DNA from: Oscillospiraceae bacterium | GTDB lineage: Bacteria; Bacillota; Clostridia; Oscillospirales; SIG627 | Length of the DNA: 64,000 nucleotides | Assembly (NCBI GenBank): GCA_015063985.1 | Contig: SVTC01000006.1 | Coordinates: 1-64,000, forward strand | Reading direction: 5' to 3' | In this document: piece after piece, positions 3,174 to 5,999 of the stretch | Numbering within the stretch: the stretch's first letter is position 1 | Layout of the letters: every line of letters begins with the position of its first letter | Notes under the pieces: model-generated | Seen by the model: the letters and a program-made list of their open reading frames with translations, nothing else | The model's database searches: none | What the model was told of the DNA's origin: nothing | Made by a program: the position numbers and the translations under genes

Positions 3174-3412
3174 AAAAAAATAAAAAAGCACACTCAAAGG
3201 CCTATGGCCTTCAAGGGTGCAGTGCACGGTTCCACCTTGAAATTTAACTCCTTTTACCCTATAACGGAGGTCAACCGTTTGCGCTTACTGAGATTTGGGC
3301 GCAAAAGCTCGGGAACGGTCTTCGCACGATCTCTTTTGCAGGAGGCTTACAGCCGAGACCTCCCTCTCTGAGCAAAATCCAAGGGCTACTCTTTCCTTCA
3401 TAGCTTTTATTA
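3174..3412 (-). ncRNA. T-box riboswitch leader of thrS
   Basis: On the minus strand the conserved T-box sequence AAGGTGGAACCGTGC lies at 3224-3238. It is followed by a terminator stem (3191-3202 with 3206-3219) and a U-rich tail at 3174-3189, just before the thrS ribosome binding site. The upstream part folds into a long stem I. An ACC codon near 3330, in the context AAGACCGTTCC, is a plausible threonine specifier but its assignment is tentative. Uncharged tRNA-Thr would favour antitermination. Confidence 0.93.
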
Positions 3413-3419
3413 CCTATCC

Positions 3420-3448
3420 ATTATATCAGTAAATCCTCGCTCTGTCAA
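3420..3448 (-). promoter_or_regulatory. Promoter of the thrS T-box transcript
   Basis: On the minus strand a perfect TTGACA (3443-3448) and a perfect TATAAT (3420-3425) are separated by 17 bases, with an extended -10 TGA. Transcription would start near 3412. Confidence 0.9.
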
Positions 3449-3505: not shown

Positions 3506-5869
3506 TTATTTTTTCAGCTTATAACAATTGGGACAACCTGTCCCGTTCATCCTTGATTTAATGGCGGCTTCCCATTCATGCCCTTTTTCGCATATCCACC
3601 AAACTTTTTTATTGCTCCCTGCAGTAACATCAGTCGGTGAAATGTCGGTATTTTTGGAATAATTCCATTCTTTAATCAATTCGGGATGTTTTTCTGCCAA
3701 ACTTCCTTTTTTCAAAAGAAGGGTTCGGTTTCTATTCAAGGCACTTTTTACCTTTGCACAAGTCGGACATCCTCTACCTCTTGTTCGAGATGCTACTGTA
3801 GCTTCCCATTCATGCCCCTTTTCACATATCCACCACACTTTTTTATTACTAACACATGTAATAATCTCCGGCAACAAACCGCCATTCTTTCCATAATTCC
3901 ATTCCTTGACTAATTCCGGGTTTTGTGATGCCAGATCATTGTAACCTTTTGTGACAATCTGTCCGGCGCAGCGAGGACATCCGTTTCTCTTTCTGGAATT
4001 AGCCACCGCATCCCATTGATAGCCACATACTTTACACTTCCAATTTATTCGCTTTGTAGAGCCGTAAGAGATGTGCCATGGCGTAAGCTTTCCGTTCTTT
4101 TCTTGATCCCACTCATCAATCAACCAGGGATATTTTGCCGCTAAGCTGTTTGCCTTTTCATGCATAGCATACTGTTCAAGTATCAACATCCGGTCTCGTT
4201 TTATATCTACATCCACAGCTGCCAAACCGCAAATCTCTGTGAGCCTATGAATCACGCAGTCAAGGTTAGTATAATCGCTGTTCACATATTGATAGAATAT
4301 CGTATCCCCTTCAAAAAGCATCTTATCACTTTCGTATATCGCTATCATACGAATTCCACGATTACGGAAAAAACTGTATTTTTCCTCATCCTGCAATTTT
4401 CGATTCTTATGGTAATACATGCCATTGTATTCTATTCCGATATTTAATTCAGGTAAGAATATATCAATCTCACGTCCTTCAATTATATAGCGGTTAACAG
4501 CCTTTGTCACCTTCGAAAGATATAAAAACAAAGCTTGTTCAGGGAAGGAAGTGCTATGTTCCTTGTTACATTCGGGACAACCCCGCCCTCTTATTCGGGA
4601 AGCCACCATGGCTTTCCATTCATGCCCTTTTTCGCACACCCACCAAACTTTTTTATTGCTCCCCGGAGCTACGTCAGTGGGTAACAAACTTGTGTTTTTA
4701 TCATAATTCCATTCAGCTGCAATTTCCGGATGGATAGATGCAAGATCGTTCATGCCTTTTATGACGATTCTGTTTGCACAAATAGGACATCCTGTGCCGA
4801 GAGAAGTTCTGGAATAAATCGAAGTAAAGTATTCTTCTCCGCAATCCGGGCAAAGCCACCAAACCTTTTTGTCATTGTGAGCAGTGATCTTATCCGGTGT
4901 AAGCGGAAAGTTTTTGGGATGCCACTGTTTACTGATATCGGGAAATTTTGAGGCTAAATCATTGAAGCCAGCCAAAACCTCCTTTCCCGCACAAATATGG
5001 CATCCTGCTCCCGAAACTCTGTTATATACAGCAGCTTCCCAGCTATGACCGCAAACACCCTTCCACCAAACGATTTCTCTTGAACTTTTGTGGACCTGAG
5101 AGGGGAGCAAGGGAGCATTCTTTTCAAAATCCCACTCCTTTGCGATTTCCGGAAACTCCTCTTCCAAGGAGCCGCGTCTTTCTATCGTGTTTTGGGTTCT
5201 GGTTTTACCTCGCTGTATTTTCATACAGATTGGGCAACCGCTGTTTTTTAATGTCCTACCAATTATTTTTGTTTTCCAATGATGTCCGCAATCTTTACAT
5301 ATCCAATTAACCGATTTGTTTGAGCCTTCAAGGTATTCCTCGGGAAGGTGTTCATTGTTTTCGTAATCCCATTCCTCGAGCAGATGGGGATGGGTTGTAG
5401 CCAGGTCCGTTTCACCTTTTATAGGGAGCTTTCTCGCACAATATGGGCAAGCCGATCCCATAACTGTTCTGTGATCTATTCTTGCCACGTACTTATGCCC
5501 CTTATCACATATCCAATGGACATGTTTTGTGGAACCGTGAGACAAAAGATCCGGGTTTAAAGATAATTTATTATTTTCTTCCCAATCCCATTCCTTAATC
5601 AACTGAGGATGGGTCGTGGCCAAGTCCGTTTCGCCCTTAACAGGAAGCAGTCCTGCGCAATAAGGGCAGCCCGATCCCGATATTGTTCTATTGGATATAT
5701 TCGCTAGGTATTTATGCCCTTTTGGGCATATCCAATGGGCACGTTTTGAGGTGCCGTGAGTTAATATATTGGGATCTAAAAATAGTTTATTATTTTCTTC
5801 CCAATCCCATTCAGACATGAGTTGGGGAAAATCACGCAAATATTTCTTTTCTGCCGTAATGCCCACCAC
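3506..5869 (-). CDS. Nine-repeat treble-clef zinc-finger protein with an embedded Vsr-like nuclease domain
   Basis: The 787-residue protein contains nine copies of a ~55-residue unit. Each unit has a 'EW..EKN' start, a GS.K..WW.C....H.W core and a CP.C end; the CP.C/CH.C pairs lie near residues 68, 141, 212, 290, 361, 431, 631, 701 and 779. This matches the treble-clef/zinc-ribbon family (DUF4379 type). Between repeats 6 and 7 (about 440-550) lies a Vsr/PD-(D/E)XK-like domain, with EIDIFLP (D469) and IEYNGMYYHK (E480). The GTG start at 5869 has no clear ribosome binding site, so the start is uncertain. The gene is visibly more A/T rich than its neighbours. DNA binding and cleavage are inferred; no substrate is known. 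Confidence 0.88.
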   Translation of the reverse strand: MVGITAEKKYLRDFPQLMSEWDWEENNKLFLDPNILTHGTSKRAHWICPKGHKYLANISNRTISGSGCPYCAGLLPVKGETDLATTHPQLIKEWDWEENNKLSLNPDLLSHGSTKHVHWICDKGHKYVARIDHRTVMGSACPYCARKLPIKGETDLATTHPHLLEEWDYENNEHLPEEYLEGSNKSVNWICKDCGHHWKTKIIGRTLKNSGCPICMKIQRGKTRTQNTIERRGSLEEEFPEIAKEWDFEKNAPLLPSQVHKSSREIVWWKGVCGHSWEAAVYNRVSGAGCHICAGKEVLAGFNDLASKFPDISKQWHPKNFPLTPDKITAHNDKKVWWLCPDCGEEYFTSIYSRTSLGTGCPICANRIVIKGMNDLASIHPEIAAEWNYDKNTSLLPTDVAPGSNKKVWWVCEKGHEWKAMVASRIRGRGCPECNKEHSTSFPEQALFLYLSKVTKAVNRYIIEGREIDIFLPELNIGIEYNGMYYHKNRKLQDEEKYSFFRNRGIRMIAIYESDKMLFEGDTIFYQYVNSDYTNLDCVIHRLTEICGLAAVDVDIKRDRMLILEQYAMHEKANSLAAKYPWLIDEWDQEKNGKLTPWHISYGSTKRINWKCKVCGYQWDAVANSRKRNGCPRCAGQIVTKGYNDLASQNPELVKEWNYGKNGGLLPEIITCVSNKKVWWICEKGHEWEATVASRTRGRGCPTCAKVKSALNRNRTLLLKKGSLAEKHPELIKEWNYSKNTDISPTDVTAGSNKKVWWICEKGHEWEAAIKSRMNGTGCPNCYKLKK

Positions 5870-5967
5870 GTTTCTGTATCGCTGTATCTAAAAATTATTA
5901 TAACATACACTAGCTGTTTTTTCAACATACTTTAAATTTATCAATTTATTCTCTTCAAAGAAAAAAA

Positions 5968-5999
5968 CTCGGCGAGCGTTTAAAAGCTGCTCGCCGAGG
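5968..5999 (-). terminator. Terminator of the aminotransferase operon (copy 2 of a duplicated hairpin)
   Basis: These 32 bases are identical to 3466-3497, followed on the minus strand by seven T residues. It lies 20 bases past the stop codon of the DegT-family gene. Confidence 0.88.

Follow-up and report, generated by a model that had tools for sequence, protein, structure and literature searches.

The window, a stretch of 64,000 nucleotides from an Oscillospiraceae genome, encodes a 787-amino acid protein in which nine DUF4379 zinc-finger repeats surround a nuclease domain of the Vsr/I-Bth0305I type. The protein is probably a free-standing DNase resembling homing endonucleases, with a zinc array that would pick the target and a gene that would be spread by break repair.

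The open reading frame begins with GTG (Table 1). Nine stretches of the protein match DUF4379 (PF14311) with very strong support (E=1.4e-163, 531.6 bits versus a curated cut-off of 24.5), in agreement with the nine treble-clef zinc repeats described in the first-pass annotation. Six repeats precede the nuclease and three follow it. Four zinc-ligand residues can be read in each repeat (C..(H/C)..CPxC), slightly shifted in repeats 4, 5 and 7, and pairwise identity among the repeats is mostly 30-67%. In the full-length model (pLDDT 85.7, pTM 0.39) nine confident strand-strand-helix units are seen, with an uncertain mutual placement, as would be found in a flexible chain. Modelled repeat 6 matches a solved DUF4379 domain, that of a trypanosome mitoribosome assembly factor (9hny_Fd, Z 11.5). 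The repeats therefore belong to DUF4379 by profile match and by modelled treble-clef fold, and are predicted to bind zinc. The gene had also been described as A/T rich; its GC content is indeed below that of the window, but only mildly (42.1% versus 46.5%).

A Vsr-like nuclease had been proposed between repeats 6 and 7, marked by D469, E480 and an IEYNG motif, with Vsr and I-Bth0305I as the structures to compare. These residues are at the positions given, and an AlphaFold model of the segment from repeat 6 to repeat 7 (pLDDT 93.2, aligned with 68 relatives) has the nuclease fold. Its nuclease part matches I-Bth0305I (PDB 3r3p) with Z 9.6 (rmsd 2.8 Å over 91 residues) and Vsr (1cw0) with Z 8.8, although Z values of 8-10 are modest if taken alone. 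The I-Bth0305I structure was found independently with a sequence profile of the same segment (E=4.9e-5), and PHROGs matches are to endonuclease and homing endonuclease families. Among 76 aligned relatives, D469, E480, H487 and K497 are invariant and E444 and E467 are 99% conserved. Nor are D469 and E480 generally lost in homologues, a possibility raised earlier: of 223 distinct nuclease domains, 214 cover the core, and 208 of these retain all four residues D, E, H and K. E513 is conserved in addition to E444, D469, E480, H487 and K497, and an E-D-x-H-D mapping onto I-Bth0305I is possible only in part. Because sequence, fold and active-site conservation agree, the Vsr/I-Bth0305I-type assignment is firm, and the modelled domain has the fold of EDxHD/Vsr homing endonucleases.

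Position 510 is A in the window protein and mostly R (80%) in the 76-domain alignment. This substitution would be compatible with a relic of an old homing endonuclease that is inactive in the window genome, as would the decay that homing endonuclease genes are known to undergo once fixed (PMC13405050). However, the frame of 787 codons is intact and has its own promoter-like site, and none of the six conserved acidic, H and K residues is missing; we consider a relic very improbable.

The gene is flanked upstream by the terminator-like stem-loop that ends an aminotransferase unit, and downstream by the promoter and T-box leader of thrS. The thrS promoter (3448..3420, minus strand), ahead of the leader, has a perfect consensus. 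No tRNA, intron or mobile gene adjoins the window gene. An association with an intron was considered and rejected, the Rfam matches around the gene being to the thrS T-box only. A second, diverged family member is found elsewhere in the genome, with four repeats, a nuclease and three repeats. Comparison of the two copies revealed no convincing common flank and no common target sequence.

Table 1. Positions of the array-nuclease gene, its domains and its flanking signals in the window.
Feature	Position	Strand	Support
Whole gene, nine DUF4379 repeats and embedded nuclease, 787 aa	3506..5869	-	
DUF4379 repeat 1, residues 8-73	5651..5848	-	
DUF4379 repeat 2, residues 81-146	5432..5629	-	
DUF4379 repeat 3, residues 154-217	5219..5410	-	
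DUF4379 repeat 4, residues 233-295; first zinc ligand shifted (KGVCGH)	4985..5173	-	
DUF4379 repeat 5, residues 303-366	4772..4963	-	
DUF4379 repeat 6, residues 374-436	4562..4750	-	Z 11.5 to 9hny_Fd
Nuclease domain, I-Bth0305I/Vsr-like, residues 440-545 (E444, E467, D469, E480, H487, K497)	4235..4552	-	
Predicted helical linker 3' of nuclease, residues 555-572	4154..4207	-	Full-length model
DUF4379 repeat 7, residues 574-636	3962..4150	-	
DUF4379 repeat 8, residues 644-706	3752..3940	-	
DUF4379 repeat 9, residues 722-784	3518..3706	-	
Promoter-like site of the gene, TTGAAA-17-TATAAT, 11/12, consensus match only	5897..5925	-	
Terminator-like stem-loop and T run ending the upstream aminotransferase unit, read by eye	5961..5998	-	
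thrS T-box leader, directly downstream of the gene	3210..3410	-	RF00230, 96 bits

The distribution of relatives is patchy, and constant partners are absent. A homologue is found in 6 of 22 genomes of the window organism's family. Genomes with DUF4379 matches above the cut-off number 35 of 391 in the class, 12 of 398 in the phylum, 60 of 397 in the family to which Pseudobutyrivibrio belongs and 25 of 397 in the order that contains Halobacillus. Relatives are also common in phages, where they often carry a homing endonuclease annotation; Hef-like homing endonucleases are among them (tblastn). Repeat number varies across relatives, from 2 to 10 in all, with 0-9 repeats before and 0-7 after the nuclease (175 proteins). 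At four loci (L026, L041, L074, L087) array-nuclease genes are present in tandem neighbouring copies with differing repeat numbers. One genome in the family of Pseudobutyrivibrio (L347-L351) has several dispersed three-repeat DUF4379 genes on at least seven contigs, with no nuclease detected.

The genes directly beside the relatives are of many kinds, with 157 Pfam families represented in 126 proteins; site-specific recombinases are the commonest, with five. In Rhodococcus and Crinalium plasmids, DUF4379 arrays occur in fusion with a helicase and a methyltransferase of PF05148 (L136:6175-10215, L295:5962-10212, L304:3433-6843), and in two Bacteroidales MAGs a Panacea (SocA-like) antitoxin gene is directly upstream of a DUF4379-nuclease gene (L063:840-1799, L072:4033-4992). 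The defence role guessed at in the first-pass annotation would make the protein a nuclease kept by the host against phages and plasmids, with an array that recognises foreign DNA and a domain that cuts it. The fusions and the antitoxin genes could be accommodated in this way, as could purifying selection on the nuclease and the PADLOC matches to PD-(D/E)XK models. However, these matches are weak and homing-endonuclease-like, with no strong one among them, defence genes do not recur among the neighbours of relatives, and the protein is without a modification partner. Defence thus appears unlikely, and a free-standing homing endonuclease is the better analogy.

Array genes in which no intact nuclease was detected form a further group of loci (L059:4830-6107, L064:5167-6354, L066:5155-6120, also L060, L061 and L065). 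Gene order is kept at the L059-L066 array loci: two Pfam-less proteins (often of about 535 and 260 amino acids), the array, and a Y-family DNA polymerase. IMS domains are found in L059 and L064, and IMS is matched by four neighbours in all. Array proteins of 464 amino acids are encoded near ParA/ParB genes (L257:5666-7057, L258:4617-6008), and one of 431 amino acids lies by ParB and a ParM-like gene (L344:1348-2640), its nuclease core changed to Q, I, M and R. In these three a dead nuclease seems to have been domesticated for replicon maintenance. Array proteins beside a Y-family polymerase at first seemed to have no nuclease; one ParB-linked array protein proved to carry a degenerate one.

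Such Par-linked proteins, and the arrays followed by a polymerase gene, might be taken to indicate that the array serves RNA or the maintenance of chromosomes and plasmids rather than homing, with the nuclease secondary. The solved DUF4379 domains are those of trypanosome mitoribosome proteins, and because the domain is present there, RNA binding is possible for the fold. This reading is nevertheless quite unlikely for the window protein, which keeps all catalytic residues, and the related zinc finger CapR represses transcription (PMC10448857).

The homing-endonuclease-like reading can be examined further among plasmid relatives. The same five-repeat-nuclease gene recurs in six Streptomyces plasmids with 79-92% DNA identity. 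Homology usually runs from 30-60 bp before the ATG to around the stop codon, the flanks mostly differ, and an upstream neighbour is common to three of the six copies. The dN/dS of the gene is 0.23, as is that of its nuclease part. This relative is thus a single-gene unit in different flanks and under purifying selection, an observation that applies to plasmid relatives only. On Rhodococcus plasmids there are copies without an annotated frame at the site where a relative is intact, and one broken copy is found on a Mesobacillus plasmid. Because a single gene recurs in different flanks and frameless or broken copies occur, the pattern fits the gain-and-decay life of single mobile genes.

Several points count against homing for the window gene: it is larger than typical homing endonuclease genes, it shares no convincing flank with the second copy in the genome, its position 510 is A instead of the common R, and no empty site was found for it in the only other genome of the genus. 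In that genome (G001) the gene is absent, thrS is 45% identical and there is no common synteny. In the genus Halobacillus the region and its flanks are unique, and of 56 matching records from Listeria phages, 53 span most of the region together with the gene. Among relatives of E. coli phage Bas95 the flanks match different phages, with no clean empty site.

Pairs of repeats from one protein with at least 65% identity vary above all at columns 48, 50, 51, 53, 54 and 56 of the 64-column repeat. At these columns pN is 0.41-0.48, versus about 0.08-0.13 at the remaining columns, and pS is similar. At matched overall identity, the six columns account for 21% of within-protein differences and 16% of between-protein ones (p=0.0005), although this test is circular, the columns having been picked on the same pairs. 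When the columns were fixed in advance and new proteins taken, the values were 20.8% versus 16.1% (17 pairs each, p=0.039), an excess equalled by 1.3% of random six-column sets. An initial, smaller set of these proteins, contained in the enlarged one, gave p=0.09. The excess is therefore weakly replicated on new proteins. In the Streptomyces orthologues the six columns change only slightly faster than the others (pN 0.093 versus 0.079), although residues at these columns differ among the five repeats. Positive selection (dN/dS >1) at the six columns was rejected, pN/pS being 0.76-0.97 with synonymous sites near saturation. In the model, the columns are located at the end of the second strand, within the short helix and immediately before CPxC.

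This pattern is what target-reading positions would show, and relaxed constraint alone explains it less well. The repeat sequences suggest that each repeat may contribute its own specificity. The modular reading of DNA raised in the first-pass annotation thus gains indirect statistical support, with weak replication. A wider and distinctly tentative possibility is that DUF4379 arrays are a natural modular DNA-reading system, in which treble clefs of about 60 residues would each add specificity via the six columns. Such arrays would be lengthened and shuffled by duplication, and coupled to an EDxHD nuclease, to helicase-methyltransferase or to ParB- and polymerase-linked units.

For the window protein as a homing-endonuclease-like DNase, we infer that the array binds DNA, that cleavage and homing take place, and that each repeat adds specificity through the six columns. 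The nine treble-clef modules, with linkers between them that are short and sometimes helical, would form a flexible array on a long DNA target, gripping and reading it. The embedded EDxHD/Vsr-like domain (PD-(D/E)XK fold; E444, D469, E480, H487, K497), presumed to be metal-dependent, would cut within or beside the site, and repair of the break from the gene-carrying copy would spread the gene.

The same two kinds of domain are combined in homing endonucleases of phage group I and II introns, in which fingers related to DUF4379, CapR and DUF723 accompany EDxHD/Vsr-like nucleases; these form a large, previously unrecognised outgroup of EDxHD/Vsr homing endonucleases (PMC12350094; EDxHD enzymes are reviewed in PMC3943268). 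The phage enzymes have 3-5 fingers before a C-terminal nuclease and are found in introns (PMC12350094), whereas the window protein has nine around the nuclease and is free-standing, chromosomal and without an intron. I-Bth0305I shares the nuclease fold and profile match, in a comparison over the nuclease only; relatives of the window protein conserve D-E-H-K, and the correspondence to EDxHD is mapped in part. Hef-like homing endonucleases of Campylobacter phages and T4-like phages are likewise free-standing and match over repeats and nuclease (tblastn), but with only 22-23% identity. T5orf172 (GIY-YIG) homing endonucleases carry repeated CapR/DUF723-type fingers, CapR being a zinc-finger repressor. 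These tandem fingers are a target-recognition module whose repeat number varies by recombination (PMC10448857), but their nuclease domain is unrelated and at one terminus. The Vsr mismatch endonuclease is alike in fold but is a single-domain repair enzyme without a zinc array. As to TALEs, which have a near-identical scaffold with set specificity positions in each repeat, DUF4379 proteins show the six-column excess, but with repeats mostly 30-67% identical the window array is not TALE-like in uniformity.

The plan of a finger array with an EDxHD nuclease is thus already published for phages, and the long bacterial array around the nuclease is a variant of it. No description of this bacterial long-array, embedded-nuclease form was found in the literature searched, in which DUF4379 is seldom named. 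The concentration of differences between duplicated repeats of a protein at six columns is new.

DUF4379 is widespread, in bacteria, phages, giant viruses, fungi and trypanosomes, and is functionally unnamed in Pfam. In the window gene it is joined to a nuclease whose active site is intact and conserved, and the six columns are specific candidates for the residues that determine which target is chosen. Should each module read DNA, the relatives with their differing repeat numbers would provide modular DNA-binding proteins from a new source.
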